Shown: one piece after another, positions 4,406 through 64,000 of the stretch
How positions within the stretch are numbered: position 1 is the first letter of the stretch
Layout of the letters: each line of letters opens with the position of its first letter
NCBI GenBank assembly: GCA_027922465.2
Contig: BQMF02000497.1
Location: forward strand, 1-64,000
From: Turritopsis dohrnii
Lineage: Eukaryota > Cnidaria > Hydrozoa > Anthoathecata > Oceaniidae
DNA: 64,000 bases
Direction: 5' to 3'
Program-made: the position numbers and the translations under genes
Notes under the pieces: generated by a model
The model's database searches: none
What the model was told of the DNA's origin: nothing
What the model saw: only the letters and a program-made list of their open reading frames with translations

Positions 4406-4445
4406 TTAAGATACAGATGACGTAGTTTCCGTGTTTGATGGTTGA
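4406..4445 (-). CDS. Gene B exon 7: terminal exon
   Basis: After acceptor CGTTATAG|TC the frame reads SQPSNTETTSSVS and stops at TAA (4408-4406). The QP.., Ser/Thr-rich opening and phase match gene A exon 7, which is why this short exon is accepted. No clear AATAAA was located just downstream on the minus strand, so the mRNA end is not placed. Confidence 0.55.
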
Positions 4446-7400
4446 CTATAACGAAAACAATGAAACTAGTAAACATCAGTATGTAACCAAACTACTGTTA
4501 AACACCATCACAATGAGAACTTTATGTGGATTGTCTTTATAAAAAAGACAGGTATACCTTTTAACATTACTCGACGGGTAATATATCTCCGCTGGCGCAG
4601 ACAATATGCCTCCATATTTACTGATGGCCTGTATTACAAATTTATATCTTAGGTTGTTTTCTATGGTTACTTCTACTCTGTTGCCATGGAAAAGTGGATG
4701 TAAGACATCGTATTCTTCACTAGTTTCGAATGTATTCGCCGACATTTTCGTTTGTGCCACTTGAAACGAATTCTCAGGATGAACCCAGGTGAGTTCTATT
4801 GAATTATCTGATAACATCTGTCCTTGAAGATCTTGTACAGGTTCTGGCTGCATGAACCTAAAGATACAAATGACAACACTGACATGCAATGTATACGCAT
4901 ACTTGGAGCAACAGAAAGTGTTCAGAAACAAAACCTGAAAACGTCAAATACTGTTCCTACATCATAACCGAAACAAAATATCTCAGGAAATATTTCTATT
5001 TCAAAGTTTCAAAGAGGATAATGAAAATTGTTTTGCAACAAGTAAAAGAACAACTGAATACCATAATGCAGCATTTTCATCTGGCTTAGGCTTACTTGGC
5101 ACCTCAGCTGGTTCGGTAACATTGCAATATTTCTTGTGTTGGGGATGGTTTTTGTTGATTTTGACGGTAGTTATATTTGACTCACTGCAGAGAGAGGAAG
5201 CGGCGTGTGGAAACTCTCTGTCCTGATTTTTAGTCAGTATGTATGAATAAATATCCAGGATGTCACTGTCATGGCATAACTTCTTCACAACATTACCCAT
5301 CGATTCTCTTTCATTTCCACTATATAATGCTTCATCATAAGGATAAGGAACAATAAGGACTAAATGATCAGTACACCTGGAAATCTTCTCAATAAAAAAC
5401 TGCCTTTTAAAATGTTCCTTTGGGTCAATAAGGACAACAAGTTCTGAACATTCCAAGCCTCTGCATCCAGTATAATCAGTCAGTATTGTTTTTCCATAAA
5501 ATGACATTTCTTTGACAGATTGGTCATCCGAAGCGCCAGGTATGTAAAGAGTCCATTTCTTTCCTAAACTAGTCAACACAGAGGAACACATTCGGTATTC
5601 ATTTTCATCATTACATATGATCATTCGTTTCTCGTTTCCCTTACTTCCACGGTAGACGTGACGTTGCAAAACCAGAGACAGCAAAACTGATTTTTCCATA
5701 GCCGATAACTCTCCTTGTTGATTTAGAAATACCAAAACTGGTTTACGACCATTGATATTATGTCCACAGTCCACAGACTGTTGGAAGATGAAATTGGTTT
5801 CGACTACTGCATTTGAGCCTTTATACTTCTCCTCATTTTCATAAGCGACTGAATCAATGTCGTCTGGATTTGAATGCTGAACCTGCAGGTCATTCCGCAC
5901 TGAAGGTAAACGTGGTAGGTCTAAGGAAGGTTCTGATTCTGTTTCAGTTCTTGTGCTAACATTAACAGGACCGGATATTTCATTTGATCGATTGTGGATA
6001 TTTCTTTGACAGGAATCCGATATTTGTGGTGGCTGCAAGACTCTATTTGGAAGAGAGATTCCTTCTGCTGATAATTCAATGATTTTAGATACTTGTTTAG
6101 TGGTACGCATTGATAATGTTAACGACATTACTTCCATTCCACAGTCTTTATAACACTGGAAAGACTCATGTTCAATTCGTTCTTCTCCAATAACATTAGC
6201 ACGCCTTTTCTCCATTGAACGCATCGAAAATAAAATATGGGATTTGTTCAGGGATACTTCATTTTCTTTGAATATGTTTTTCAGATGAAGTGCTTCTACT
6301 GCATTGATGATTTCAGCATCTAGCTCATCAACAATCAGATGAAACCTTCTGCCTGAAGATTTCATCTTCTCTATCATGGCCAGCAACATGTTTGAAATAG
6401 TGAAAGGAATCTTTTTACTTTGGTTTCCACAAATTTTTTCAAATTCTTGTGATAGCCACAGTTCTACATCTTTGCAATTTCCAAAAAGGACATTTGCGTT
6501 TCCAGCACGGCCAGCATCTTTTATTTTCTTGAAAACATCTCCAAAGCCTTTCAGGTACAAGCTGTCATTATCAAATAAGACAAAGTATATGTCTACAGGC
6601 TCTGTTGCATACTTCACTAAATGTTCAAGAAGATACCGTGCCACTACGGACTTGCCTGTACCATATCCACCTGTCACTATTTTCCACAGTTTCTCATGGA
6701 ACACAACATTTACCTGTTCTTTACTTAGCCACATTAGTAATACTTTTTCTGACTCTGTCCCAAAAACGATCCTTGGTCCGATGTTTTTGATAGCAAGGAA
6801 ACTGAAGACATAACTGACTGCAAGCATAATGGGTTCGGGACTTTGGTCTGCAATATCAAATACATTTGGTGAGATATCGTCAATACAGGAATGTAAATCA
6901 AGAAGTCTGTCTGCCAAATCTGTTTCAAAAATGTCAAACTTGTTTAATATAAGAATGTTTTCACAGTCATGTCCAATATTTGGTGCAGCTGCTACATTGA
7001 CAAATGAGAGATCTTCTCCAAGAAGTGGACCGAATACGTAGAAAAACAATCGGTAAAAGTTATCACCAGCCTTCAAGTCTTTCAGGGCTCCTTCTTCACT
7101 GCCAGCTTCACTGTAATGCACGATGAAGATGCATTGCTTTACATAATCAAACACTAGAAATTGTTTTTCTTCAGCAATTGATGAATGTTCAATTCGCAGT
7201 TTATCACAAATGTCATTAAGATCAAGATGAAGCATCTTACAATGTTCGATAAGATTATAGTCTGTTATCAAAACTGTATTGGGTAATTCAAATTTTGCAG
7301 TGACATCATAAAGTTTCTTTCTACACATATATGCTGGTGGAAACCTAATATTCTGATTAAGCAAGTCAGTAACATCAATGCTGAAGTAATCTGCAAAAAA

Positions 7401-10400
7401 ATTTCTGCATTTCTTAGTATAGTCATCAAACGATAATTTTGTGGTGGACAGTTTACCACTAGTGACAATGCTGACTTGCTCTGGCCTTTCTATCTTTGAT
7501 AAATCCAACTTCTCATAAAAATCTCTGAATGCCGAATGGGTTAAGACTCCAGGCTTTGTGCGAAAAACAGATGTTTCTTCTTGGCCATCAGTAACTAAAA
7601 TTATGAAAATAATTGAAAAACAAAATTATAGACAATTATCGCAAAATAATCACTAAAGATGAAAAGGAAATGAGCCATGTTGCCAGTTTGTTTTTCTTAA
7701 ATATTGATGTCGTAACTACTGGAAAAATTCAAGTGTGATTTGCCATATAATAAATACAAAAGAATTTCGAATGTTATTCCTATACTTTTGACTATTTCAA
7801 ACCTTATGTGGTTCTATCTGGGTTTTAGAAACAACAAAATCAAAAATTAAAATATTTCAAACTGCAGCTTTCAAATTCACTTCAAACTGCTGTTAGACAG
7901 CTAAGTTATTTAAGTATCATAATGACTTATCACAAGGTCATACGTTCATGTAGTAACAGAATAATTGGAAAATGTCATCTTACCAGAAACACAAGATTCT
8001 AGACTGTACGGCTTGGTCTGGCTATAATTATAAAATTAACAAGATGTCATTTCTCAAGATAATTGACATAAATGCAACTCATGAGGTGAATAAACATTTA
8101 ATAAGAACATATGAGTTGAACGATAGATGACAAAAAATGCAAGTCAAAAGCAGATAACATGTCTCAACATCAGTAGCTTTATGGCTCAATATTCGGTAGT
8201 GTTATTATGTTGTAATCGCTAATAAAAAAGATCAGTTGTTCAGATATTACTGTATTAACCACTGTAGTATCCAAGCTTCAATTCTTAATTAAATATAATT
8301 ATGTTATGTTTGGGAAGGGTTCGCCTTTTAGTTTATAATAAAACTGTAAAGTGAACACTACATTGGTGATGAGATAAAATTCAGTGAAGCAACTATGGCT
8401 GTAGCAACGTTTGGAAGGATGCCACCAAAATTAGACCCAAGAAGAAGAAGAAGCATTTATAGAGTGGGCAGAACAACTTGACGATTACATCCTAGCCTCA
8501 GCAATCACTGATGAAGGACAAAACAGGTGCTGCTGAGATCCATTGGAGGAGGAAAGATCAGAAAAGTTACTGACATATGATTGGTGTAAAATCACAACGT
8601 ATCAGTCAGAAACCAATGAAACAAGCATTAGATGAGAATATCAAAGAATTCGAAGACTCTGACATTCAAAGAATTCGAAGAATATCGAAGAATTCAAAAA
8701 CAGACTCTGAATTGAAAGTAACATTGTGACAGAGACGAACAAAGAAGAGATCAAATTATATTCAAATGCAAGTATAACAAACTCAGCAGAGGAGCCTTGA
8801 AACACGGTTGGGACCTTAAAGAATTCATGAAAGAAGACAGCAACCTAAAGATGACTGCAAGTGTGTCATAAATGTGGCAGACAAAACCACTTCAGAAAAG
8901 CCTGTATTGCACCTGCCCCAACATCAAACGAACATCTAAAAGCACCCTTAATAAAAACACTGCAGAAAGACTCAGAAAGTGAGGAAGAATACAGCTATTA
9001 CATGTACCCCACAACTGCAGAAGAAGAGGAGATAACAACCATGTCAACACAATAGACCAACTAACCAGCGATAGTACCATGCCGTGAAGTCCCAATCCAT
9101 CTCTGAGAGAAATTTGATCAATTACTCACAAAAATTTAACAACATGATATTATTGAGTATGTCGACGGGCCAGTGGAATGAAAGAAAAACCGGTAGAGTT
9201 TTTAAAATAAAGCAAAATGTGTTTTCTTTTAAGTCGAATGATGAAACACGAGTAACAACAATGATCCATGTTCACAATACAGTTTGGAAATTAGTTTCTT
9301 ATAGCTATATTTGAACTCAAACTCCATCAGCTATAAACGCACTCCATACAGAAAAATTCATACACAAGCATTGTTCAAATTTATTTTAAGAAGTTCTGAC
9401 AGAATGCTGAGAATTATTAGTGAGCTTGATTGAGGATTAGATTTTGATTGTTTTAGAAACTTTTAGATTTAGTATTCTTGTTTACAGTCTAACCCTGAGA
9501 ACAATGTGTCAAGCCATCTTTCGTGTGTATGAATATAGCCAAAAACATCACAGAATAGCGAATTGTAGAACTTGTTGAACTGATTCAAGATAAGTTTGTT
9601 AAATAAATAATTATGTAAATCATACCTTTTAGAATTTACACCAAACAGAGCTAGAATTAAGAAAGACATGGATTTAGTAAATGAAGACTATCAGTTGTTT
9701 ATAAAAGATAAAAGACAATACAGATATAATTCAAAAGTAAAAACCTTCACTATACCTTGGTCAATATCTGCCACAACTTGACCTGAATCTAAATACGTTA
9801 ATACCTTCTTCAGATAGGCCCACGTAGTTTGAGATTGATCGTTTGATTCACGCCATTTGCATAGCACTTGGTATAGTCTCTCTTTCACATCATCAGGGTA
9901 GTCCATTCTTATGGTTTCTACTTGATGGTATTCAACAAGCAAGTGACCAATGACTCTCTGAAGAGAAGGAAGTCGTGTTGAAATTTGATCGAAAATTTCC
10001 GTAAATTTCCTTGATTTTTCTTCTTCACTTTGAAAACAGTCATCTTCCAATGTGTCTATCAAATAAAAATATCAGTCAAGCGTAGCACAATACATTTCAT
10101 ACAGTCACATTTGGAACTTGTACCATCTTACTATGATAAAGAGACTCACTTTCCATTAGGTCTATAACACTGAGAACTGATAATAACCATAATTCTTTAT
10201 TAGGGGAAGATGACAATGTCATGAAAATATTCACACTTCCTTAGAGAATCATTTTTAATATGCGTAGTAAAATTTATAACAGGTTTTCTTCAGGACAGGA
10301 ACTTGCTCTTTGGAAAAAAGTAAATAAATATTTCCCTAACTATTTCCCCCAATCTTTTGGTAACATTTTTTAAAAAGTTTTCCCTGCTCATATCAACAAA

Positions 10401-13360
10401 CATATTTGTAAACATTAAATCTTGCAATAAACATTACTTCTTACATAGGCTCAAAAACAGGTTACACAGAAGTACGAAACATGCAAGATTGTGCTGAAGG
10501 GTTTATTGTAAATTCCGCTCTGCAATCCAATGAACCCTTGAGTATGTATTTAGAATGGCCGTTATTTATAGGGACGCTATTCTTGAAAACATAAGTGTAG
10601 TAAAACAATCTTTCGACCCTCCGTCTTGTTTCTTATTATAACAATGTTGAAATATTGAAATATTTTCATACCTCCTAGAACTGGTAGCTTTTCCAGTTGT
10701 TCCGTAGTGATGATGTGAGCCTGGAGACCACAATTCCTCAGAGTTTCGTTAACAAATACTAAAAAGTTTTCATCTTCCCAGTTCGATACGCGATGTGACA
10801 ACATGTAAGCAAAACATTCAAGAACTGGTCTCTCCTGTTTATATTGGTCAAACAGCTCCTCCACCTTTAGGTTATCACCATATAATAAAGCTTTGCAAAA
10901 TTTCTTTTTGTCCACAGATGTTTGTGCACGCAGTCGTTGATCAATAAGGTATGCAATCCAGAGCTCTGTATGAAAAAAAGCATTTTGTCAAGGGCCTAAA
11001 ATATGATATTAAGATGAAGTTCAAAATATCAAATACGCCACTCAAAAGTCCACATACTAGTGGAGAAATTCTGAAGTGGAATTATTTGTGAGTGATGTTT
11101 CCAAGTGATGTGAATTTTACTTTTGTGGAACAAAGATTATCAGGATATTTCTGTGCAACTAATTTTAAAAAAACCCCCGAAAAACCTGACAAACAACAAC
11201 CTGACTCGTAGTTATTTGAATATTGAATACACGATTTTTTTTTTATAAGCAACTTAGAATTTTGGTCAGAACTCGAGTTGCTTATTTTTCAGCCAATTTC
11301 TATATCTCGAGTTGCTTAATGGTTGCTTAAGTTTCTTAGCCTAAATTTCAGTGTTTTTACGAATAAGAGACAAAATACGGTTTAATATCAAGTCTTTAAC
11401 AGAAGAGTGCTCTTTACAACTAAAACTAATGGCAATTTTTTAAACTACGTAAAGCTATGTTTGATATCTAACATAAAAATAGTATTTGATAGTAAATAAA
11501 GGAACTTTTTGAGTGCTTTGATTTTTATGTGAAATTTATGAGTTGCTTATGTTAACATTTGTTCAGAACTGAAGTTGCTTAATATTTTTTCAAATCGAGT
11601 TCAGTTGCTTATAAACGAGTTGCTTATAAAAAAAAAATCGTGTAGTTATTTAAAGAGTTGTTATGTTTGTTTTTATTATTATCACTCGATAATAATAAGG
11701 ATGTAAACAGCCACTAATTTTTGAGGAGTTACAAAAGAAAAAAAAATGAAGAAGATAAGATGGCAGCAATAGGAAAACAATGGAAGCTGTTCTAGTGGAG
11801 AAATTCTGATGTTTTCCTTTTGTGGAACAAAGATTTTCAGGATATTTCTGTGCAATTCATTTTGAGAATTTTCATTTAAAAAAGAAAAAAACACCTGACT
11901 CACAGTTATTTGAATATTGAATAGTTATTTGAAGAGTTGTTATGTTTGTTTTTATTATTATCACTCATTGCAAGGATGTAAACAGCCACTAATTTGTATG
12001 GAGTTATAAAAGAAGAAAAAATGAAGAAGAAGAAAATGTTGATAGCAGCAATAGGAAAACAATGGATGCTCTTCTTGAAAGTGAAAACCATCATGAAATG
12101 TGATCGTCCATGGGAAAAAAAAGTACACTTTGTTTTACCGGGAAAAAATATACCGGTATTTTACCGATAAATAATGTAGTGTCGATATTAATTATAAACT
12201 AGTTATATTATCTGTAATTACCGGTAAGCAAATTGAACAATACTTTTATTGGTAAATGTACCGGTAAATCTAAATCGATCCAATTTTATTGGTAAAGTGT
12301 GAATTAATTAAAACAAGAAAAGAGCTAGTTAAAGAGCTATTATACCTAAGTTATCATTTATGGTGTTACGTTACCGTAGCCTAATAATTTGAAAATCACC
12401 ATTACGTTAGATATAACTGGTCATTGTTTTGCTATTACCTTATCGGACAAAACTTAGGCGGACAAAATTTTAGTCGGACAAAACTTAGGCGGACAAAATT
12501 TTAGTCGGACAAAACTTAGGCAGACAAAATTTTAGGCAGACAAAATTTTAGTCAGACAAAACTTAGGCGGACAAAATTCTAGTCGGACAAAAATATTAGT
12601 CGGACATAATTTTAGTCACTTCCAAAAAAATTTAGTCACTTTTGTCCGACTAATTATTTTGTCCGACTAATATTTTGGTCCTTTTTTTTGTCCGACCTGA
12701 AGCCACTTCATGCAGGCTGGATTGTAAATCTGTTTAACCACATGCAGGAAGAAGCCGAACTCATCAAAAAAGGATTCAGTGAAGCAGGAGTAAGTGAGGC
12801 TATCAATAATGCGCAATCCGTTTACGAAAGGGTCGAGAATCCCTTCAGGGAGTGAGGAAATAACATCATGAACAAAACCGTTTATGTTATTTCATCAAGA
12901 CTTACTTTAGCCACTTTGTTAAAATTGTTTATTAGTTCATTAGTTTATCCAAAAATATTTGTATTCGTTTGTGAGCAAGAAGAAAAAGATTTTTACAAAA
13001 TCATTAATATTTAAAATTCCGCACTGAAAGTGTTTAGAAAAATAATTTTGAAAAACTTGGTTTGGACAAAATATTTAGTCGGACATAATAATTAGTCGGA
13101 TAAAATTTTAGTCGGACAAAAATATTAGTCGGACAAAATTTTAGTCATCTCCAAAAAATTTAATCATTTTTGTCTGGTACAACAGTAACAATAAGAAGTT
13201 AATGAGATGTTCTATAATATACTTTTTAGCTGTTCCATATTCAAGGCTTTGTTTCTGTTGATGAGAATTCATTACACAGTAGGAAATAAAATACTACTAT
13301 TGATATATGTTCCTTACTTTGTTGGCAGCCGGCGACATCTTCCTCTTGATTTAGTGCCAT
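4406..13360 (-). CDS. Gene B: death-fold / Death / SF1-helicase-like ATPase / FN3 protein (7 exons)
   Basis: Exons in transcription order: 13360-13318, 10965-10672, 10055-9756, 7594-5096, 4956-4935, 4857-4558, 4445-4406. All introns are GT-AG and the total is 3498 nt, giving 1165 aa. Layout: short N-terminus (MALNQEEDVAGCQQK), death-fold-like domain (about 15-112), Death domain (113-212), P-loop helicase-like region (213-1045), FN3 (1053-1152), short S/T tail. The order and phases match gene A except that the ATPase exon is inserted and the HEPN-like exon is absent. Death domain plus P-loop NTPase recalls NLR-type receptors, but the ATPase is SF1-like rather than NACHT or NB-ARC. I infer an innate-immunity or cell-death role. 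The first exon has a good ATG context but also an acceptor-like AG 16 nt upstream of the ATG, so a fusion with gene A is possible. Confidence 0.7.
4558..4857 (-). CDS. Gene B exon 6: fibronectin type III domain
   Basis: 300 nt, acceptor TCTTTAG|G and donor AAAAG|GTATACC, phase 2 to phase 2. FN3 features: PEPVQDLQG, IELTWVHPE, EEYDVLHP, YKFVIQAISKYGG, APAEIYY. The length and splice phases equal those of gene A exon 6. FN3 domains are usually ligand or partner-binding modules; here it sits C-terminal to the ATPase, probably in the same cytoplasmic protein unless a membrane segment has been missed. Confidence 0.85.
4935..4956 (-). CDS. Gene B exon 5: 22-nt micro-exon
   Basis: Between GATGTAG|GA and TTCAG|GTTTTG, encoding TVFDVF with phase 1 entry and phase 2 exit. 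Without it the ATPase exon (phase 1 out) cannot join the FN3 exon (phase 2 in). It matches the VFGV micro-exon of gene A by place, phase and partial sequence. An alternative acceptor 6 nt further on also keeps frame. Confidence 0.42.
5096..7594 (-). CDS. Gene B exon 4: superfamily-1 helicase-like P-loop ATPase
   Basis: A single 2499-nt exon, phase 1 to phase 1 (TTTTAG|TT to CCAA|GTAAG). It carries a Walker A motif, GGYGTGKS (protein residues about 521-528), a Walker B, LIVDELDAE (about 632-640), and downstream SF1-type blocks: LTLSMRTTKQVSKII (motif IV-like), ILTDYTGCRGLECSELVVL (motif V-like, compare T..KGLEF) and ISRCTDHLVLIVP (motif VI-like, with the Arg). The 280 residues before Walker A are not recognised; they contain FDYVKQCIFIVHY, which could be a nuclease- or sensor-type beta core. 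The arrangement is reminiscent of helicase regions in Schlafen-like and DUF2075-like proteins. This is a family-level impression only. The part between Walker B and motif V includes a low-complexity acidic/Ser linker. Neighbouring Death and FN3 exons place it in a signalling protein and not in DNA repair. Confidence 0.85.
8215..9056 (+). pseudogene. Decayed LTR-retrotransposon gag with CCHC zinc knuckle
   Basis: From 8395 the frame starts MAVATFGRMPPKLDP, then a GAA-rich microsatellite has shifted it; the next frame continues EEEAFIEWAEQLDDYI. At 8861 a zinc knuckle CHKCGRQNHFRKAC is intact. Upstream, AATAAAACTG followed by a CATTGGTGATGAG run (8338-8378) looks like an LTR end and primer-binding region. 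No protease, RT or second LTR was found. It lies in the gene B intron between the Death and ATPase exons. Gag start and knuckle resemble Gypsy-type elements; the element is dead. Confidence 0.65.
9756..10055 (-). CDS. Gene B exon 3: Death domain
   Basis: 300 nt, phase 1 to phase 1, acceptor TGATAG|AC and donor CAAG|GTATAG. The Death-domain pattern reads FTEIFDQISTRLPSLQRVIG, IRMDYPDD, LYQVLCKWRES, TTWAYLKKVLTYL, VVADIDQ. It is clearly paralogous to gene A exon 4; the usual Trp of helix 2 is present in A (YLWRV) but replaced here (SLQRV). The next intron contains a decayed LTR retrotransposon gag. Confidence 0.85.
10672..10965 (-). CDS. Gene B exon 2: death-fold-like helical domain
   Basis: 294 nt, phase 1 to phase 1, acceptor CATACAG|AG and donor GGAG|GTATGA. 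It begins LWIAYLIDQRLR, then DKKKFCKALLYG, PVLECFAYMLSHRVS, FLVFVNETLRNC, and ends KLPVLG. The blocks line up with gene A exon 3 throughout, including both exon edges. The family is not recognised beyond an all-helical, death-fold-like character. Confidence 0.75.
11053..12075. repeat. Tandem duplication of a roughly 285-bp unit, first copy interrupted by a MITE
   Basis: Unit part 1 at 11053-11229 (TAGTGGAGAAATTCTGA ... TTTGAATATTGAATA) recurs at 11790-11929, and part 2 at 11643-11788 (TAGTTATTT.AAGAGTTGTT ...) recurs at 11928-12075. In the second copy the two parts are directly joined; in the first the element at 11230-11642 separates them. All of this is inside a gene B intron. Confidence 0.75.
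11230..11642. mobile_element. TA-flanked MITE (413 bp), Tc1/mariner-like target
   Basis: Terminal inverted repeats start CACGATTTTTTTTTTATAAG and are flanked by TA on both sides. The uninterrupted sister copy at 11928 shows a single TA at the joint, so TA is the target duplication. There is no transposase. The interior contains repeated GAGTTGCTTA or AGTTGCTTAA motifs that also occur in the terminal repeat. A related element lies at 49206-49661 and a fragment at about 29053-29135. Confidence 0.8.
12128..12300. repeat. ACCGGTA-motif cluster
   Basis: Repeated ACCGGTA, TACCGATA and TTGGTAAA motifs in both orientations over about 170 bp. Probably a small element or degenerate satellite; no boundaries found. 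Confidence 0.35.
12443..13180 (+). mobile_element. Iteron-rich element with a captured transposase C-terminus
   Basis: The left block (12443-12690) is made of tandem units of about 31 bp, TCGGACAAAACTTAG plus GCGGACAAAATTTTAG, ending in inverted copies. The right block (13060-13180) carries the same TCGGACAAAATTTTAG motif and closes with the same CCAAAAAA-TTTA-TCA sequence as the left block. Between them lies a coding remnant (12700-12855). The structure is that of a non-autonomous DNA element with subterminal repeats; the superfamily is not settled. Confidence 0.55.
12700..12855 (+). pseudogene. C-terminal fragment of a DDE_1 (pogo/Tigger/jerky-like) transposase
   Basis: A 51-codon frame ends in a stop and reads KPLHAGWIVNLFNHMQ, then IKKGFSEAGVSEAI. 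The LKPLHA.WI....HM and later GF..AG...AI pattern is what I know from the C-terminus of CENP-B/pogo-type DDE_1 transposases. The frame extends one or two codons upstream and then meets repeat sequence. Too short for certainty. Confidence 0.45.
13318..13360 (-). CDS. Gene B exon 1 (start exon, or internal exon of an A-B fusion)
   Basis: Reads MALNQEEDVAGCQQ and ends at a good donor (CAAA|GTAAGG) in phase 1, which joins the LWIAYLID exon at 10965 with a Lys at the junction. The ATG has A at -3 and G at +4. Upstream, TTATCTTAG|CTTCTGC (exon start 13374) forms a possible acceptor, and the frame stays open back to it. This could be a 5'UTR splice site, or an internal junction fed by the tail exon of gene A. 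Confidence 0.5.
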
Positions 13361-15206
13361 GATGAAAGCAGAAGCTAAGATAAAAGTTAACCAAATCAGT
13401 TTTCCATTATTTTAAAAATCAAGTAGGTATAAGGGGTTACATAAAAAAACTTGCTTTTTTATTGAATTTCTTGCAAACTTACTTTATATCCAACTATTTA
13501 TACCAGATTTACTATGCACATAATTCTGTTATTTCTAATTCTAATATGCATCCTCACCTTCATCCGCTTTCAAATTATCAATGATTTTGTCCAATGTTTA
13601 CATGCACTTGTATAGTTCAAAATTTCATAAAAATTTGGGTAAAGATCAATTGATTGGTGACTATTCTTCAAATAAGAAACTGTTGGCAAAGGTCAATTTT
13701 TAACCTACTTAAAATTGTTGATTAATTATGTAATTCAGGCAGTTTGCGAAAAAATATACCTTTGCAATATAGGTGAACGTAGGGCTTGACATAAAGGAAT
13801 CCCTACCGCGCAACTAATCGCGTGCCTAAATTGACAACAACAAATTGGCCTGCACGATTCCAAGTTTCGTTACAAATGATGGAATTTTATTTATTGAAGT
13901 CGGGGGACAAGTTAACCAGTGAACCCCAAACACTGGAGGCATTGCAGCCCTTATCTTCGACTTCAGTGCATATTAATGCTTTCTTTTTTTTAACTATGAG
14001 TTCTTTGTGTTTTATTGATGTAAAACGTGAAAATTCAATTAACAAAATACATCTTTGTTAGTTAACACAAAACAACTATATAAACTATATAATAACAACC
14101 ACTCAGCATAATTTCATCTTCATATAACTAGAATGAATTAACAAATTTCCTGAATTGATCTGTGTACAGACATTGTTTGCAAAAATATTTTGAACTAACA
14201 AAACCCTTTGTTTGAAAGACTTTTGAAAGTTACTATGATTTTTGAACATTATTTCCTATTTATTAAAATGAAGTAAGAATATTTTTTTTTCTATTATATT
14301 TTTCTATAATCCAATTGTTATAATTTCAATAATGTAAAATCTTGCGCAATGTCTTTTCGAACTTGATCATCAAAAGATCTGGTAATAAAGCTGCTTTTAA
14401 GTTTTCGTTTCGAGGGTGTTATGAAATTAACAAAGCTATTCATGACATCTTTGTTATGTATGTTTTCTGAGAAAGAAGTCTGGTAAGAGAAAACCACTCT
14501 AAAATATATAATCATTCCTTTTGATAGATATTAACTATAAATCGCTCAGATAAATCGTTGTTTATCAAAGCTGGGCGAATGAATCATCTCTTGGATTGAA
14601 CTTGGACGTGTGTTTGCGTGCGCGCGAGTGATCACACGCCTTTTATGACAAGGCCTGTGTATACCGGGTGAGTCAAAAAAATGGACCAATGTTTCACAAA
14701 AAATATTTTTCGATTGAATAATTATGAAAGATAGTTATTTTTATTTCTGAATAGAGGAATCCTTTACCTATATTTTGGTGTATCACTTTTCTTATTTGAT
14801 TGAGTAGAAACAAAAATTATAGACAAAAAGCTGGAAGCGGTCCTGGTAAAAATCTTTGAAAAATGGACAAAAAAGCCAAACAAAATATTCCTGCGAAACT
14901 CTTTGATTAAATTTGATAATTTAATTGAAAAGGCTATGGAGATTGAAAGAAAGGACACAGTTTGTCTAATCACCTCTTTACCAATATTTACCCTAGCAAA
15001 CTGGATGCATACGCAAACGCTTTGTTGTACGGAGTTGCGGCATTTCTCAGTGAATAAAGTTTTAAGAAAATGTTGAAAAAAGTTTGATCTTTTCTGAACT
15101 TAATTATTGGGAATAAATGATTTAACTGTTCCTGCATTGAGCACAAGTCGACCTTTCGTCTCTATGCAGGAGCACATGGTTCTCCTCTTCGTGTTTATAC
15201 GCACTA

Positions 15207-16070
15207 CAGTGTGTTTCAAAACTTTGGCTTCAAAAATTTTCATGGCATTCTTGAAGAAAATATTCACTTAATTTTTATAAATTTTATATCGATTGGAATC
15301 CTTATTTTTGGTCTTTCTCGTGATGTAACTTTTGTAGGAAATGGAAAAGTACTGTGTGTATCAAAATGTCTTATCCACCAACTTTCAAGGCGTATATTTC
15401 ATTACATGTCTGAAAAAATATAGTGAATTTTATATCACAAGAAAGAGCTTTTCATGCTCCATCCGTTAATGTAAAATGTTTGCCAAAATATTTGTTCTTC
15501 GAAAAGATATTGAAGAAAAACTCAACGATTTGGCTCATTAAATTCTTAAAAGTCAATTAACTGACATGCTAATGACTTTTTAGTGGTGTAATTTTCTTTT
15601 GTTGTGCTGATGAAACTTTTAGAAAATTTTAAGTATAACTTTGCAAATCAATTTCCCATAACAACTAATCTCAAAAATTTCAAATAAATTTTTTTTACTG
15701 TGTGATGATTTTTAATGTTTTTATTGTGTTTACAAATGACCTTCATTGTCTTCATTGGTTCATTAAATTCTTAAAAGTCAATTAAGTCATTAATTGACTT
15801 TTAAGAATTTAATGAACCAAATCGTTGAGTTTTTCTTCAATATCTTTTCGAAGAACAAATATTTTGGCAAACATTTGATATTAACGGATAGAGCGTGAAA
15901 AGCTCTTTCTTGTGATATAAAATTCACAATATTTTATCAGACATGTAAGGAGATATACGCCTTGAAAGTTGGTGGATAAGACATTTTGATACACACTGTA
16001 GAAGAAGAAAATCGAAAAAATTAAGTTTGGAAAAATTCATTAATTTCTTAACGATCAATTAAGATGTTTA
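15207..16070. mobile_element. Mariner-like MITE copy (TACAGTGTGTTTCAAAA family), interrupted
   Basis: Starts at TA|CAGTGTGTTTCAAAA and its interior (GTGATGTAACTTTTGTAGGAA ... ATTTCTTAACGATCAA) is shared with 52667-52820. The copy is split at 15351 by the element 15352-15998. The right end was not fixed. Located between the last exon of gene A and the first exon of gene B. Confidence 0.55.
15352..15998. mobile_element. TA-flanked foldback MITE (647 bp) with about 200-bp inverted arms
   Basis: The ends are CTGTGTGTATCAAAATGTC and its near-exact inverse, flanked by TA (15350-15351 and 15999-16000). The arms run about 15352-15560 and 15790-15998 and stay similar over their whole length, including the block AACGATTTGG.TCATTAAATTC. 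The interrupted flanks appear uninterrupted at 52746-52747 (GGAAATGGAAAAGTAGAAG). No transposase. Confidence 0.8.
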
Positions 16071-16417
16071 ACAATAACAGCAATTTCTGAAAACAAAAAC
16101 AGTTATGAAACAATTTTTGATCACCTTCACTTTAACAAAGCCAATGTTACGCACGCTTGAAAAAATTGTACGTCAGCAATTACTTTAATTGAGAGTCTCA
16201 GATGTCACATAACGGCATAAAAGATTTTGCACCTTCAAACAATAAAGATACGATTGAAACTAATGATTTTTTCCGAACGATTTCATCTTTCCATTCTTGA
16301 CATTATTACTTTGTAATAGGTCAATTCTGACTGAACAAAAACTTAGAAAGTTTTAGAGAATTACCTGATTTCATACCGTTATCAATTATCATACCTCATT
16401 TAATCAATAATTTGAAG

Positions 16418-16565
16418 CTAAATATTAAACAGCTCGTCGGAATGAACATTTAAAAAAACAAAAACGTATAAAAAAGAGACGAACAAAGTCATACTGTGGT
16501 ATTTCTTAGAAGGAACAGATATGGTTGATGGAGCTGATGTTGGCGTAGACGAGTGTGGTGGTTGG
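16418..16565 (-). CDS. Gene A exon 7: Ser/Thr/Pro tail with hydrophobic end
   Basis: After acceptor TATAG|CCAACC the frame reads NQPPHSSTPTSAPST and continues through VPSKKYHS into MTLFVSFLYVFVFLNV, ending at a stop at 16420-16418. The gene B counterpart (4445-4406) starts SQPSNTETTSSVS and stops at once, so this is probably the terminal exon. The hydrophobic stretch could be a membrane segment, or it could be intron read in frame: a possible donor CACA|GTATGA at 16495 would remove it and connect in frame to the exon at 13374-13318. Confidence 0.5.
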
Positions 16566-19500
16566 CTATAAAGGAAAAGATCCAATTGTAAGGGTTTTGA
16601 ATAATTTCCAAGAAAGATACTTCAACACTGGAAAAAGAAAGAATGTGCTCTTACTTTGAAATGGTACTACAGGAGTAATATGTCTCAGCTGGTTCAGAGA
16701 GTAAACCTCCGTAAACACTGATGGCTTGTACTTTAAATTTGTATGAGAATTCTTTTTCGACAGGTAACTGTATTTTGTTGTCATAAAAATTTGGATGAAT
16801 GACTTCATATTCTTCCTCCGCTTGTAATGTACTTCTTGACAATTTTGTTCTTGCCACTTGAAACTTATTGCCTCGATGATTCCAGGAGAGTTCTATTAAT
16901 CCTTCTGATATTGCTTCCACCTGGAGATCTTTCACAGATTCTGGCTGTATGAAGCTAATAAAAATAATATAAATCAAAAAAATCTACAGTTTCAACTTAA
17001 ATTTCAACTACATCTAGATAGTAAAATAAATCACAGGAAGTTTCAAAAAAGCTTATCAATGGGAACATATAAGTACTTTCATTGTTAGTCCAAACTCAAT
17101 AGACTCTCTAGTGCTGAAGAAAGTGACTCTGAGACAAAATTATTGTTGGAAGACCCTATAACTGACCTGAGACAGTAATGTACCAGCTTAATGATTACCC
17201 AGTATCAATTGGGAAAATATCAAGAAGGGTTGCAAGTTCATCAAAACGTCAAAAAGATTTCGACATTTGGTACAGAGTATCACTTGCATATCTGGGGCTG
17301 AGCACATACCCTACTGACTGCCAAGATCACAGTCTGCATTTACAATCCCACACTGAATCCTAGAAACCATTCTCCAGATTAACTGTACCAAAATGCATGA
17401 CACACTAGCTATGAACACGGTATTGGAAAGCCAAGGAGGAAAAAGAAACTGCCATGAAACAAACAAATAGTAATTTTTTTGTCTTCTGTTCTCCTTTAAT
17501 AAATTTAAATGAAGTTCAAACATCAAATACATTGAAGCATATGAATATACCTGACAACAGGGACACCAAACACATCTGAAATACAAAAGAATTGAATTGC
17601 ATGCATATGTGCAATAAGGGCAATTTTTGTTCATAGAGAATTAAAGACATTTTAAATAAACAAATACCTTGCTCGATATCTGCTACAAGATTATTTTCAC
17701 CAAAATATATCAACAGCTCCTTTAGATATGCCCATGTGACGTTTGAAGATCCATTTGATTCATACCAAGCAGTCAACACTTGAAACATCCTTTCTCTCTC
17801 ATCGCCACTATGATTAATTCTGATGACCTGCGTCTTAGCATATTCTATTAAGAAGTGAGCAAGAACTCTCCATAAATAGGGCACTCTTGATGAAATCATT
17901 GTGAACATTCTTTGTAGTACTTCAAACTGCTTGTCTCCATTTCCCAAGTTGTCCTCAGCCATAGTGCCTATCCAAAGAAAACATTGAAAAAACATTATCA
18001 GCTTTCTCAATAATTTGTCTCAAATTAACCTTTTTTTGTTTTGAGAAAAATAAAGAAAGAATGCACATTAATAAAACAATGTTATTCTTTGGCTTCGTTG
18101 ATCAAATTAATTTATTGAAATTATTGGAAGATGTACCTTGTAAAACTGGCAGCTTGAGTAGCTGATCTTCAGTGATTTGATGAGCCTGAAGATTGCATTT
18201 CTTCAGAGTGTTGTTAACAAAGTCTAAAAACACTTCATCATCACCGTTTGATACCTGCTGTGCTAACATGTAAGATATACATTCAAGAACTGGTCTGTCT
18301 TCCTGCCCACTGTATCTGCTAAAGATTTCCTTTACTCTGTCGTTATCGGCAAGCATCAAGGCTTTGCAAAATTTCTTTTTGTCGAGCAATTTTTCATCCA
18401 AAAGTTTATGATCAACTAAATACGCAATCCATAGCACTATAACACAAACAAAATTATCAAATAAGTTTGATAACAGCTTTAAAGATGAAAATAATAATAA
18501 GTCTGAGCATGCCACTGGTCCGATATATGTTTCCCAAAGATCAACTAGAATCATTTAGATGACGAAAAAAACAAGGCATACAAATCATTAACTTTGTGAA
18601 GGTTTCCTCTTAGAAAACCTGCTTACTTAGGTCATTAGACAAAATAGTAGCTACATTATGTGCATACATGTGCATGGATGATGCAAATGTGACGAAAAGT
18701 AATAGGTTGACACCATGGCCTGGGAAAATCTGGACCCTGAACTCGTCTAATGCCCTGAAGTGTATAGAAAAGTCTCAAAAATACTGACAGTTGGCAAGGA
18801 TAACCAGATGTAACTGAACGAAACTGAATATCGATCAAATAGGTACAAATAGCGATGGTTGACAACCGAGTGCCCAGAGATGATAGGAAAAGGATCAGTA
18901 CATCCTCTTGCACTGGGAATAGTGAAAAACCATTGTTAAAGCAGAAACGCTTAGATAGGTAAAGCTGTGTTTCAAGTGGTTTAGTTGATGAAGCCAAAGC
19001 GTGCAACTGATAAAAAGCTACTGCAGCGGTAGGATCGACCATACCAGAGGATTGACTTTGGTAGGCAGAGGATTCGCCATGGTGCACACTGTGCAAATAC
19101 GCCTCACCTGGAAACGAGAAAGAAAGTCAGCGGCAGCATCAAAACGACCTGGCACGTGCCGTAATAATTTTGCTGTGATAATTCTGCCACTGGAAACGCC
19201 AATTTACTACTGCTGTGACGATGGTAAAGAGTTTCTTGGCCATGGTAATGAGATGAGATGGCCAAGTCTCACTGAACCAATGGGGACCCCAAAAACAGCC
19301 ACGAAACCACAACCAGAAGCATCAGTGTACAAGGACATGACCACTGAAGTGATAGGCTCCAACTGAAAGAGGCAGACTCCATCCCAATTGATCCACCACT
19401 GGATATCGGCCCAAGCTTCAGCATTCAAATAAATATGGTGATTGAGAGGTGAAATCAAAGTAGATAAATCAATCAACCTTCGTAACAAAATTCGTCCTGG

Positions 19501-22500
19501 CTTAACCACTTTTGCTGCAAAAGACAATGAACTTATTAACGAAAGTAATGGATGTTTAGTACACTAGCGACGGCTACTCCACCCACGTTACATGGTGTTA
19601 AGGTCATCAAACTTATCACCAGGTAATCAAATGGTACAACCAAGTATGTAAGTCCTTAAGTTGGGCCCACTGTTTTCTCTGTAGATAGAGAGACACCCAA
19701 TTCAGAGCATATTGACTACATAACAGCTATGTCATCAGCCACTTGACGTTCCGTCAAGCTGCAAATTAAAAAATCATCAAGATAATTCAACCAACAAAAT
19801 TAAAAATCCAACATAGTAACACTGTAAATTGATGAAAAATGAAAGGAGAAGGATGACTCCCAAATGGCAAACAAGGGTCAACAAAATAATGGCCCTCCCA
19901 ACAGCAACCTAACAGGCCCCACTGAGCAGTACAAAGAGGACACAAGTGAAATTCGTGTTTAATACCCAATTTAGCCAAATAATACCCCAAACCCAGTTGA
20001 TCATGAGTATAGAGTCATCAAAACTAGAGTACTTAACCAAAAAATCTGACTTATTGATACCTTCATTGACCGAACCCCCTTAGGTGACAATAGATCCAGA
20101 ATAATCTTAAAAGTCCTGTCTTCTTTAGGGACAGCACCAAGTGGGAAGCAATGCAATGGCTCAAGTGGTGGATACAAGAAGGGGCCTGTAGTATGACCTC
20201 TACTGACCTCTCTCGCAATTGCCTCTCAAACCAGTAAATGATTATTACAAGCTGACAATAGATTCCTAGGTCTAGTTGTTAAAATAGGGCCAGAAAACCC
20301 AATAATAAAACCATAATGAAAACCATCCAATACAAAGCATACAACTGCTTGGTCCAGATGGTCAATTTTAAATCTGAAAACATATTAGGACGAAAATCTA
20401 TACTTGTTGGTGCATCACCAGCCCGGATGGGGACCTGCACAGATCCGACACCGATGCGTAAAGTGACACTAGGTACTACTGCAGTGACCATTTGCGTTAT
20501 AATATTGACAGGATCTAGACTGCGAGGAGGATTCGGTCACTGAAGCTTGGACTGACTGTGACTGCTGGGGGCACCAAAGGGTTGATTGCCACTAGGAAAG
20601 ATGGAGCCTGAATTGATACCTGTCATTTGAGACAACTGTATCGGACAGCCAGATGCAAGGTGCCCCACACCCCTACAGGAAAAACAGACAACGTAGCATA
20701 GGAGCACCCCTCAAATGACCATTATACAAATCACCATTGTGATTCCATGTCAACGCAGCATTGTAAGCCATCTGGAAACATAAGCACCCCAAGCCTGCAA
20801 ATTAAATTGGGTGGCGAAATCACAGATGATGATACTGATACTGTAACAACTCACACACACGATCAGGGAAAAAGTGACCATAGCAACTTATAAAATTGGT
20901 CCAAGCCACCATCCACAAAAAAAATCACAAACCCTTGGTCAACCTGACTGGCATGACACAAGTGACACAAAAGGTGAAGAATCCCCAGAAATCCTCAAGA
21001 TTGCTGCACACCTGCTAACCGCATGCAATCGCTCATCGACGGGGCTGACCCCGTTCAATAGAGCTAAGCAGGTTAAGGGACTAACATTCCCCATTTTTCA
21101 AAGTTGAAGATTTTATCACTTTTCGAAAAAGATCACCACCATATACTTTGAGAAATCTGAAAACAATGTGAACTACTCCCAAAAAAAACAACAATAACAA
21201 CAACACCAAAAAGGTACAGAAAGAAAATGCAACATGATACAACAAAGGTGAATGGATGATCACGAGCTTACAAGGTAAACAAATAAATGTTTAAGTGATA
21301 TAACCTTGAGGTACTCATAATCCTAAGAGTAATGCTTAGAAAATTGCCGAGTGAGACCCCCGTAACAATGTTAATGACTATACAAATAATTTAAACTGAA
21401 ATAAGTACCTAGAAGAAATTCACTTCATTAAAACATTAACTGCCATGAGATCAAATAAAGATTGATTAATCCAAAACAAGGAAACAAATTAACATAGAAA
21501 AACGGTATTTTGAGCTATTCGGGTGACTTTCTAATTTCTAAGTACACAACATAGTTGCCTTTCTTCTTCAAGCCAAGAAAATGAACCATTTGATCTAAGA
21601 GGATCACATGTATTTTTGTTTGTGAGAGATTACTGAAAAAATTTCCGAATATCCACAAATGAGGGCAGCAGAATCAAAATAAATTCAAAAACATTGCTAT
21701 CTTAATTTGAAGCGGTCTAATAACTTGCTAGTAACTAGCTAGGTTATTTCCTAAAAAATTAAAATATGATATAAATTGACTAAACAATATAAAGGGTTGA
21801 AAAGATGAAGTTTTCCATGTGAAACACATCTCTATATATTTGTTTGATCTTTTTTGGTGAGTAATCAGACATCGAAAAATAAAGTAAGCAGGGAATAGAA
21901 ACACTTACACTTACTATTAGTCCTTTCTTCCTGCTCTTCTTGAACATCCTTTACGAAATCATGAATAATATTCTGAAAAAGAAACATAAAGAAAGCAAAA
22001 GTACAGAAATATTTAGTATAGTAATGATAGTGAAAAAACAACAACAAACATTATTTCAACTAGTTCTAATAATGATATAGTTGATCCTTTTACAACGGTG
22101 TTAAAACACTTGGCACACTCTGTCATATCTGTATCAAAAGGTTTTATGATAACCGCTTGAACATCCAATTGGTTGGTTTCAGCCAATAATCTTTTTTATT
22201 ATTTTCAAATGCAGTTACATTGAAGAACGTCATACCCTTAAGTTTGAGATTGTTTTTTTTTGTTTTTTTTTGTTTGTTTTTTTGAAAAAGCACCTCACCT
22301 TACAATGCCCTTCTAACTTCCCTCTTATTAACTGATGGTTTTGATCTATCAATTTATCAGTGGTTTTTGTGTAAGAGGTGACTTCAAAAACAGTTTTTAG
22401 TGTCTTCCGGCAACCACCAGGTGGAAAAGTAAGCTTGATGTCACATTTCTCGAGTTTGAATTTCTTCAGAACATCAACAAAACAATTCTTCTTAGCAAAG

Positions 22501-23765
22501 GCATCGACTTGTGCTTTTATAATATCTCTTTCGCTGTCTGTCTTTGCACCAGAAATGGAAATAATAATAATAATTGAGGAAATTTTGTACCCAGTGCATA
22601 TAACTTTCACATTCTCTATGCCCGGAATTGGATTTAATTCGATTGCTAACATTTCTTTAAATTTATTCATGATAGATACCGCTTCAGGCGATGCTGTTTC
22701 ATGATATTCTTTAGGAATATTATATCCTTCACACTTGATTTGAATGGTGGCGATAACAACATGGCTTTCATTTGAGTAATCAGTGCTGAATCCATTTAAT
22801 GTTATATCAACAAATTCTCCATTCAATACAAGGCAATTGCTCAGTATTTTCCCCGATTCAAGTTGTATTGTTTTGCGAAATGTTATCGAAGCCTGACTTG
22901 TAAGATCTTTGAGTTCATTAATTTTATCCCAATCTTCCGTGGACATATCAAATTTTAGTTCAAATGTTCTAATGAACACTTCTCGAACTGTGTATTGTTG
23001 AATATTTTCTCCTGGAAAGCAATGGTGTAGGTACACTTCTTTTTCAGTCAGTACGATATTTCTTAGTTTCAGTTCATCATTTTCGTATTCTGGGTCTGTC
23101 AAGTACTTTTCCTTCCAAAGTAACTTCAATACTTCAGCAATGACGTTTTTCCATAGTGTCAGTTTTTGTTTCCAATCAACTGCCATGGGACATGTTGGTT
23201 GTTTCTTCATTGCATCACTAATTGTTTTATATGCCTGTGGACTATTATGAGCATTAACGTTGCGTAAACTTTTAATTTCCTTAACATTTATTTTTGAGAA
23301 ATCACATGGATTCTTCCAGCACCGGGAACATTTTTTGCAACAGGAACAACATGTTGCAGTGTTGGTACATACTGCATCCTTTAGATGTAGAATTTCGTGT
23401 ACTGGTTTCCATTTCGTAGTACAAGTTGGATACGCAGGTATCTTTTTTAATATCTCAAATAAAAGTCCTGCATCAATGACATCAACATCTATATCAGTTT
23501 TGAAATTGTTATCAGATGAATAAAATAGCTTCTTGTTATCATCATGTCGCATTGCTTTTAACTTGATACGTGGATATTGTTGTAAGCTGTGCTGCAAAAT
23601 GTCAGAGAAAGCCTCACCAGGTGATTTTGCTTGATAGTGTATTGCTATTTCACTCTTCTCTGATAAAAACTTTACAAGTTGCTGTATATAAAACTGAGAT
23701 ATTCGCTGTAGACAAAAAATTTTACACTCAATTTCCGAACGTTCCAAGACGCGAACAGCTGCCAT
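16418..23765 (-). CDS. Gene A: HEPN-like / death-fold / Death / FN3 protein (7 exons)
   Basis: Proposed exons in transcription order: 23765-22299, 21972-21915, 18436-18137, 17967-17668, 17575-17551, 16954-16655, 16565-16418. All introns are GT-AG; the exons sum to 2598 nt, a multiple of three, giving 865 aa. The start ATG has A at -3 and G at +4. Layout: N-terminal Cys-rich/HEPN-like region (about 1-489), short acidic linker (490-508), death-fold-like domain (509-608), Death domain (609-708), FN3 domain (717-817), Ser/Thr/Pro-rich tail with a hydrophobic stretch (MTLFVSFLYVFVF) near the C-terminus. Intron 2 holds a DIRS-like element. Exons 3-7 have counterparts with the same phases in gene B. 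Known of the families: Death domains assemble signalling oligomers; HEPN domains are often RNases or RNA binders. The immune role is inferred. The last exon could instead splice at 16495 into the exon at 13374, fusing A with B. Confidence 0.68.
16655..16954 (-). CDS. Gene A exon 6: fibronectin type III domain
   Basis: Exactly 300 nt, acceptor TTATTAG|C, donor TCAAA|GTAAGAG, phase 2 to phase 2. The FN3 pattern is clear: PESVKDLQ at the first strand, IELSWNH with the conserved Trp of strand B, EEYEVIHP, the YKFKVQAIS block with the strand F Tyr, and GGLLSEPAETYY at the end. The length is about 95 aa, normal for FN3. The closest relative visible is the FN3 exon at 4857-4558. Confidence 0.85.
17551..17575 (-). 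CDS. Gene A exon 5: 25-nt micro-exon
   Basis: Bounded by TTTCAG|AT and TCAG|GTATAT, and encoding DVFGVPVV with phase 1 entry and phase 2 exit. It is needed because the Death exon leaves phase 1 while the FN3 exon enters at phase 2. A comparable micro-exon (VFDVF) occupies the same place in gene B at 4956-4935. The assignment rests on splice signals, phase and the VF[GD]V similarity. Confidence 0.5.
17668..17967 (-). CDS. Gene A exon 4: Death domain
   Basis: Exactly 300 nt, phase 1 to phase 1, acceptor GGATAG|GC and donor CAAG|GTATTT. The protein shows the Death-domain pattern: F..M...ISSRVPYLWRVLAHFL, then a helix reaching IRINHSG, then MFQVLTAWYES, TWAYLKELLIYF and a final NLVADIEQ. Death domains are about 85-95 residues, as here. 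They bind other Death domains in apoptosis and innate signalling. A methionine sits near the exon start, but the exon has a proper acceptor and continues from the preceding exon, so it is not taken as a start codon. Confidence 0.85.
18137..18436 (-). CDS. Gene A exon 3: death-fold-like helical domain
   Basis: Exactly 300 nt, phase 1 to phase 1, acceptor TTATAG|TG and donor CAAG|GTACAT. It starts LWIAYLVDHKLL, carries LDKKKFCKAL, PVLECISYML and FLDFVNNTLKKC, and ends KLPVLQ. Its counterpart at 10965-10672 keeps these blocks, so it is under protein-level constraint. It is all-helical by composition and sits directly before a Death domain. That makes a CARD- or DED-type fold plausible, but I cannot assign a named family. 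Confidence 0.75.
18656..21080 (-). pseudogene. DIRS-like retrotransposon remnant (RT, RNase H, tyrosine recombinase N-terminus)
   Basis: Reading on the minus strand, the RT blocks near 20.2-19.7 kb include VDPCLPFGSHPSPFIFHQF and the catalytic YLDDFLICSLTERQ. An RNase H block follows at 19527-19210 with LRRLIDLS, ADIQWWINW and LYTDASGCGF. Then 19020-18660 carries AFYQLHALASSTK, LSKRFC, LILFLSSLGTRLS, LQGIRRVQGP and PITFRHICIIH. This last block matches the N-terminal half of the tyrosine recombinase of DIRS-like elements. The frames are broken by stops and shifts, and the catalytic R-H-R-Y half is missing. It sits in intron 2 of gene A in the same orientation as the gene. A second copy of the same type is at 29372-30445 on the plus strand. 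Confidence 0.75.
21915..21972 (-). CDS. Gene A exon 2: acidic linker
   Basis: A 58-nt exon between a good acceptor (TTCTTTTTCAG|AAT) and a strong donor (AATA|GTAAGTG). It encodes NIIHDFVKDVQEEQEERTN and leaves one base, giving phase 1. It joins exon 1 in phase 0 and the LWIAYLVD exon at 18436 in phase 1. The QEE...LWIAY arrangement recurs in gene B (exon 13360-13318), which supports it as a real exon. The following 3.5-kb intron contains the DIRS-like remnant. Confidence 0.6.
22299..23765 (-). CDS. Gene A exon 1: Cys-rich, HEPN-like N-terminal domain
   Basis: This single 489-codon exon ends in phase 0 at AAG|GTGAGG; the open frame runs on into the intron to 22230, where it turns into a Lys-rich low-complexity tail. 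Residues 133-154 hold a dense cysteine cluster (CCSCCKKCSRCW and more) that could bind zinc. RNVNAH at residues 168-173 matches the R-x(4-6)-H pattern of HEPN domains, and a predicted helical stretch with LTLWKNVIAEVLKLL follows. The Cys cluster followed by an R-N-x3-H motif resembles the vertebrate CXorf38/DUF4559 type and, less closely, the DZIP3-type HEPN region. That resemblance is from memory and not from a search. Residues 200-489 are mixed alpha/beta and I do not recognise them. An early alternative donor (CATT|GTAAGG) would break the frame of the next exon, so it was not chosen. Confidence 0.75.
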
Positions 23766-35907: not shown

Positions 35908-36002
35908 TGAAGAATGACTTGTTCAAATATATTATTAGTTATATATTGTGAATCTTGGCCTATGAAATATAAACGAAATAGTAAAATAATGACATCTCTA
36001 CA
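35908..36002 (-). repeat. 3' LTR of the Gypsy element
   Basis: 95 bp and identical to the 5' LTR. On the minus strand it contains a TATATAAC box-like sequence. Unusually short for a Gypsy LTR. Confidence 0.9.
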
Positions 36003-36118
36003 TCCCCCCGTGTTCAAATGATAAAAAAAAAAGACTATAAATGTTAGCTATATGGTAAAATCTTTGAACATAAAGTACTCAAACATCTCATCCATTCCCC
36101 CTCAGTGAAGCACCGTTA

Positions 36119-40837: not shown

Positions 40838-40879
40838 TTTCGTCACAAGAAAAGTAAAAGTATCAGTAAAAGGCCAAGA

Positions 40880-40974
40880 TGAAGAATGACTTGTTCAAAT
40901 ATATTATTAGTTATATATTGTGAATCTTGGCCTATGAAATATAAACGAAATAGTAAAATAATGACATCTCTACA
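40880..40974 (-). repeat. 5' LTR of the Gypsy element
   Basis: 95 bp and identical to the 3' LTR. Only 42 nt separate it from the ATG of the gag-pol frame, so the leader including the primer-binding site is minimal; the primer tRNA was not identified. Confidence 0.9.
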
Positions 40975-41182
40975 TCGTGATCTTCTGCAGGTTATGCTAT
41001 AGCTCCCAAGGAGTGCAGAGAATCAATTTAAATAAAGTACAATTATTTTTGCTGGTAAGGGGGAGAGTCGAAAAAATGCTCAACTAATTGCGAAACAAAA
41101 CATGCTCAACTCAGATTATTCAATTGGCAGGAAAACTTAGGCATATTAGGCGATTATTTCCAAATATTCTGTTGCTAGGGAG

Positions 41183-63839: not shown

Positions 63840-64000
63840 AGGCTGCTAAAACTTATCAACAAGAACCAAGAATTACATTATGGTTCCTTAACAGTCGAAT
63901 TAGATTCTACAGATGCAAATATATAACAACAGTACTAACCTATATTGAAGTGTATTGAATCAAGACATTAACAACCATGTATCCTGATTGGATGAGATAA

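Follow-up and report, generated by a model that had tools for sequence, protein, structure and literature searches.

Two neighbouring Death-domain genes of Turritopsis dohrnii with a shared exon scaffold, a putative HEPN-like exon and a candidate SF1-like ATPase exon

Exon organization of genes A and B

The window analysed here (the whole 64,000-nucleotide stretch C497:1-64000, from one contig of the 436-Mb assembly) contains two neighbouring exon series on the minus strand, referred to as genes A and B. Gene A opens with a first coding exon of 489 aa (A1; 22299..23765, ending in phase 0), followed by a 58-nt linker exon (A2; 21915..21972, phase 0 to 1), a 100-aa all-helical exon (A3; 18137..18436, phase 1 to 1), a Death exon (A4; 17668..17967, phase 1 to 1), a 25-nt micro-exon (A5; 17551..17575, phase 1 to 2), an FN3-like exon (A6; 16655..16954, phase 2 to 2) and a Ser/Thr/Pro-rich tail exon (A7; 16495..16565), the 3' end of which is provisional and falls in phase 1 as drawn. 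Gene B comprises a helical exon (B3; 10672..10965, phase 1 to 1), a Death exon (B4; 9756..10055, phase 1 to 1), a 25-nt micro-exon (B5; 9626..9650, phase 1 to 2), a P-loop exon of 2,533 nt that carries SF1-like motifs and appears to be an alternative to the micro-exon (B6; 5062..7594, phase 1 to 2, 843 full codons), an FN3-like exon (B7; 4558..4857, phase 2 to 2) and a short Ser/Thr tail exon that ends in TAA (B8; 4406..4445). The introns of both chains as drawn start with GT and end with AG. A preliminary description of the locus had reported two minus-strand exon series with identical phases, and its coordinates, splice sites and phases hold except at the donor end of the P-loop exon.

No first coding exon of gene B was recognized in the 5.4 kb that separate the two chains; a 13-nt candidate exon 5' of B3 was dropped because its acceptor is not conserved among other copies. 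The linker exon A2 is also present after A1 at two other loci, L030 and L031, which are 99-100% identical copies, and was not found at L032-L036. Between the genes lies an inverted repeat with 211-nt arms that are 95% complementary (window 15350-16000), and upstream of gene B a 16-17-nt unit (GGACAAAAT...TTAG) is repeated in two arrays (window 12443-12617 and 13064-13146). The A2-A3 intron contains degenerate fragments resembling a retroelement (window 18650-20900), which we take to be DIRS-like.

The exons shared by the two genes have the same phases in the same order (1-1, 1-1, 1-2 and 2-2). Protein identity between A and B by exon is 60% for the helical, 40% for the Death and 51% for the FN3-like exon, with alignments giving 59% over 100, 41% over 117 and 48% over 107 residues, respectively, and DNA similarity between the genes is confined to three blocks at these same exons. 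Over 295 codons of shared exons dN is 0.39 and dS is 0.95, indicating that the encoded proteins are under purifying selection. The earlier proposal that A and B are paralogues with shared exons is thus borne out. Additional copies of the shared exons were not found elsewhere in the 64-kb window, the only other match in the within-window comparison being a chance-level one between A6 and part of B6 (E 0.04).

Exon B4 matches the Pfam Death family above its curated cut-off (2.7e-6, 27.9 bits; cut-off 22.6) and is assigned as a Death domain, as proposed previously, with A4 as its paralogue. Alone, A4 reaches only 0.055 against the same family, below the cut-off, and it is 40% identical to B4; a profile of A4 and B4 searched against the PDB matched the death domain of PIDD at 0.0076 and 0.0091 and that of FADD from 0.041. 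The 100-aa exon A3/B3 had been described as death-fold-like. Its predicted model does contain six helices (pLDDT 65.5), but a death fold is absent among the structure matches listed for it and no convincing solved relative was seen, so that the exon is not called a death fold here. The FN3 assignment fared less well, with Pfam fn3 scoring 0.046 and 0.13 on A6 and B7, both under the cut-off, and with rival families scoring equally well or better (Big_3_2 at 0.023 and DUF4738 at 0.019). The top PDB match of the FN3-like exon is titin A77-A78 at 0.28, and A6 and B7 look FN3-like by their pattern of residues.

The A1 and P-loop exons

Exon A1 consists of a helical N-terminal part with a Cys/His cluster (C115-C154) followed by R168-N-V-N-A-H173. 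HEPN domains are characterized by R-x4-6-H, usually with Asn after the Arg, and A1 presents this pattern as R168-N169-x-x-A172-H173, part of an LRN-x-x-A-H motif. Arg168, Asn169, Ala172 and His173 are invariant in all six aligned A1 sequences, as are eight Cys and two His residues directly before the RNxxAH motif; the alignment holds the window and five of the seven other fetched loci, out of about 60 in all, with two sequences at 42-43% identity and with L030 and L034 left out as near-duplicates. A Pfam search with the whole exon gave no family matches and the other A1 copies likewise gave no HEPN profile match, while the N-terminal part of A1 produced a HepT-like hit at 0.13. An A1 profile searched against the PDB returned only phosphatases (0.41-0.46), located outside the RNxxAH motif, and the predicted model of A1 has a mean pLDDT of 35.5. 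For the C-terminal third (residues 338-446) the model suggests, with block pLDDT values of only 29-56, the order b-a-b-b-a-b, which might correspond to the RRM-like topology of TRADD-N; no TRADD-N profile matched A1, and this low-confidence resemblance offers at most a lead. The HEPN domain suggested previously therefore stands as a conserved RNxxAH motif and Cys cluster (6/6), but not as a profile match, and it is plausible that gene A encodes a putative HEPN-like RNase.

The P-loop exon contains a Walker A motif, a DELD box, an LSMR block, the sequence T-x-Y-x-G-x-R-G-x-E-C-S and a TDHL motif, all of which are invariant (x excepted) in 21 P-loop copies, namely the window and 20 fetched loci. 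The Arg preceding TDHL is kept in 20 of the 21 copies and is replaced by Gln in L024. We take these blocks to be motifs I, II, IV, V and VI of SF1 helicases. The second block, T(D/N)YxGxRG(L/M)ECS with (S/A)RxTDHL, lies about 280 residues past the DE box, and Walker A, the DE box and the RecA2 motifs V and VI occur in the order expected of SF1 (21/21, or 20/21 for the motif VI Arg). Among 200,000 shuffled sequences, 11 contained the motif V pattern and none the succession of V and VI, the patterns having been written after sight of the sequence; among the 51 open frames of at least 100 aa in the window, motif V occurs only in that of B6.

Profile searches with B6 were less specific. Its core segment scored 26.1 bits against AAA_22 (1.2e-5), below the cut-off of 27, and 25.1 bits against NPHP3_N (2.2e-5), just above the cut-off of 24.8; the latter is not a helicase family, and on the whole exon it falls to 22.5 bits, under the cut-off. 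The order of motifs is comparable to that of the Schlafen group 3 SF1 helicases (PF09848). The Pfam similarity of B6 to this family is weak, covering 31 residues at Walker A (0.15), and does not reach significance; B6 also differs from these helicases in its Death and FN3-like neighbours. A PDB search with a profile of 20 P-loop sequences, from which L015 was left out as a near-duplicate, gave no match and hence no SF1 relative, and no Mov10 or DDX60 family match to the ATPase appeared. The term SF1-like ATPase is thus a motif-level statement, and in this sense gene B plausibly encodes one. Of the SF1-helicase-like character claimed earlier, the motifs are retained throughout the copies, but a relationship by profile to a known SF1 member was not obtained. 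A divergent SF1-like ATPase with no relative detected in the collections searched, which do not include the genomes of other animals as such, would thereby join the modules linked to Death domains.

The marginal NPHP3_N score on the isolated segment, together with the succession of Death domain and P-loop, raises the alternative of a STAND-type switch related to NPHP3 or NACHT, in which case the protein would be a divergent NLR-like receptor and not an SF1-type ATPase. This appears unlikely given the second conserved block about 280 residues past the DE box, with motif V in every copy and the motif VI Arg in all but one. No NACHT or LRR match to B6 was listed at E up to 10, in a search whose filters drop most weak matches.

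Genomic copies and the exon slot

Both exons belong to large families. The P-loop exon gave 64 match rows in the assembly, which merge into at least 55 loci spread over 30 contigs. The number is a minimum, as scoring covered 55 of the 345 first-look candidates; three of the 64 rows contain a stop. The A1 exon gave 62 rows and 60 loci on 32 contigs, with 50 loci longer than 1.2 kb and identities from 100 down to 24%. Part of the copy number may reflect alleles or haplotigs. The only contigs that carry both families are C497 and C325. The latter has A1 copies 100% and 99% identical to that of the window, at two places, as well as four P-loop loci, of which one is interrupted by an internal stop; it represents either a recent duplication or the other haplotype.

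With two contigs common to the 30 and the 32, the A-B neighbourhood is not a recurrent pair, and the idea that A and B form a dedicated pair is not sustained. The same distribution bears on the possibility that A and B form a single gene, in which A7 would be spliced to B3 and the HEPN-like product would carry two Death units as well as an ATPase. The phases would allow such a join (A7 ends in phase 1 as drawn and B3 starts in phase 1), and it would account for the unrecognized first exon of gene B. However, a P-loop exon lies downstream on the same strand at only two of the 60 A1-type loci (at 14.7 and 45 kb), and we regard this arrangement as improbable.

The surroundings of the P-loop exon were compared in 20 of the 54 other loci, chosen across the identity range and fetched together with some 5 kb of upstream and 2.5 kb of downstream sequence. 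An FN3-like exon follows the P-loop exon in 20/20. Upstream, a Death exon is present within 5 kb in 12 copies and not in the remaining eight, and a helical exon within about 5 kb in eight of the 20; in the other copies these exons may be located farther upstream or be missing. At eight A1 loci only A2, in three near-identical copies, was seen in the 1.5 kb beyond A1.

The boundaries of the P-loop exon are uniform. Its acceptor is in phase 1 in all 21 copies, and a donor corresponding to that at 5062, located by a pattern of the shape [CAT]G|GTA, is found at the same place in the alignment and in phase 2, again in 21/21; splicing from this donor keeps the reading frame into the FN3-like exon in every copy. 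A second candidate donor, at 5096, was rejected: it has the wrong phase (1) for B7 and its GT is lost in three of the 21 copies (L019, L025 and L028). The exon is therefore most likely 7594-5062 and not 7594-5096. With the 5062 donor, it runs from phase 1 to phase 2, exactly as the micro-exon does.

A micro-exon with these phases was seen in seven of the 13 copies that have a Death exon (the window, L010, L011, L012, L013, L019 and L021). In all seven, which have both exons, splicing the micro-exon to the P-loop exon makes the third junction codon a stop, so that the two exons exclude each other by frame. The linear chain drawn previously for gene B, in which the micro-exon precedes the P-loop exon, is thus incorrect, the P-loop exon replacing the micro-exon; the simplest reading is that the two would be spliced in a mutually exclusive manner. 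The pattern used, which could miss a micro-exon, found none in the other six Death-exon copies (L017, L022 and L025-L028), in which the Death exon has diverged further. Nine of the 13 copies have their Death donor in phase 1; in L025-L028 this donor was not placed. Candidates for a micro-exon in L025 were rejected, as was an additional one in L013.

The micro-exon could instead be left over from the ancestral chain, which remains in use in gene A, with the P-loop exon as the sole working insert and no switch between isoforms. The six copies in which no micro-exon was found are in keeping with this, and the seven that have it are fairly close to one another, so that its conservation could partly reflect recency. 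Yet these seven, with P-loop exons that share 73-89% identity with that of the window, all preserve the frame of the micro-exon, its length and its two splice sites, and the micro-exon is conserved better than its flanks (identity 0.893, compared with 0.753 in the 70 nt before and 0.684 in the 70 nt after). A relic is on this evidence somewhat unlikely, though a possibility to be taken seriously.

Proposed function and relation to known families

The likeness of A1 to the Cxorf38-type HEPN domains, judged by description, is that its Cys/His cluster adjoins the RNxxAH motif; those domains have an inserted Zn ribbon and are found fused to DEATH, CARD and NACHT modules (PMC3710099). In contrast, A1 has no profile match and has an additional C-terminal alpha-beta part, and the chain of helical, Death, micro-exon, FN3-like and tail exons does not figure in the Cxorf38-type descriptions in the accessible part of that account (PMC3710099). 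Expansions in marine invertebrates combine HEPN, Death-like and TRADD-N domains and, in some lineages, RNA helicases such as Mov10 and DDX60, and in bivalves TRADD-N occurs together with HEPN and DED (PMC8195603). The resemblance lies in large lineage-specific families with HEPN domains, Death-like adaptors and immunoglobulin repeats (PMC8195603), but in T. dohrnii TRADD-N is only a low-confidence prediction and the ATPase lacks a Mov10 or DDX60 match. The DZIP3-type HEPN/NACHT families are similar in having many copies, an Rx4-6H motif typically with Asn after the Arg, and a Death domain in some of the NACHT proteins; neither the DZIP3-type HEPN nor the NACHT family of Pfam was among the matches listed for the A1 and B6 exons.

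The modules and their shuffling within large families are thus already known. The order of Death, SF1-like ATPase and FN3 and the exon-slot switch were not found in the literature searched, a body that leaves most subscription papers outside it.

The arrangement that best accounts for these observations, to which we would give an even chance, is that A and B are built on one Death scaffold and that genes of the B family produce either an ATPase form or a short adaptor through a single exon slot. Both would be animal intracellular proteins composed of a helical exon, a Death domain, a short insert, an FN3-like domain and a Ser/Thr tail. In the gene B family (at least 55 loci) a 2.5-kb SF1-like ATPase exon would be inserted between Death and FN3 and would compete with the 25-nt micro-exon for one phase 1-to-2 slot, so that the output would be either a long form with the ATPase or a short Death-FN3 adaptor. 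Signalling complexes are built through Death domains. In the long form, the ATPase module might bind nucleic acid or another trigger and thereby expose or cluster the Death domain, which could then recruit partners; the short form, having no ATPase, might compete or bridge as a decoy or an adaptor. Gene A would place a zinc-cluster HEPN-like exon in front of the same scaffold and could cut RNA once clustered.

In this scheme we infer the alternative splicing, the ATPase and RNase activities, the Death-domain assembly and the role in immunity or cell death. The last of these is probable by analogy with the combinations in which these modules are known from marine invertebrates (PMC8195603, PMC9646362 and PMC3710099). 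A more specific and more tentative reading is that the frame-locked choice of exon makes a nucleic-acid-driven ATPase sensor out of what would otherwise be a Death adaptor or decoy, with splicing setting the ratio of sensor to adaptor in an innate system; the family to which it would apply comprises at least 55 loci, seven of which have so far shown the two exons of the switch. If it is correct, such a system would coexist with numerous zinc HEPN-like genes, and at least the one in the window uses the same Death scaffold. Expanded Death, HEPN and NTPase families are a poorly understood side of invertebrate immunity. The architecture makes a definite, testable prediction, namely that a single slot takes one of two mutually exclusive exons and that the use of both brings in a stop.

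The many dispersed copies, in a window rich in retroelements, might also suggest a mobile-element protein that was captured or dispersed by transposition. This we consider highly improbable: the FN3-like neighbour, itself separated by an intron, is kept with its phase in all 20 fetched copies, B6 has no transposase or reverse-transcriptase match in Pfam, and the P-loop copies have a median dN/dS of 0.336 (range 0.21-0.65; 150 of 210 pairs with dS <1), indicating purifying selection. A transposon origin, for which the preliminary description had allowed, is accordingly unlikely.

Among nine close P-loop copies dN/dS peaks in the motif V-VI block (alignment columns 676-750) at 0.73, compared with 0.18-0.48 in the other eleven blocks; here dN is 0.070 and dS 0.096, the low dS contributing to the ratio, and the peak may reflect either local diversification or gene conversion.

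Elsewhere in the window there is a Gypsy-type element (35908-40976) with an open frame of 1,591 aa matching reverse transcriptase, RNase H and integrase, flanked by identical 97-nt direct repeats (35908-36004 and 40880-40976), the identity of which suggests a recent insertion. A frame at 42793-44736 has a hAT-type dimerization match below the cut-off (0.0033), and a reverse transcriptase frame is present at 61716-63845 (1.8e-18).
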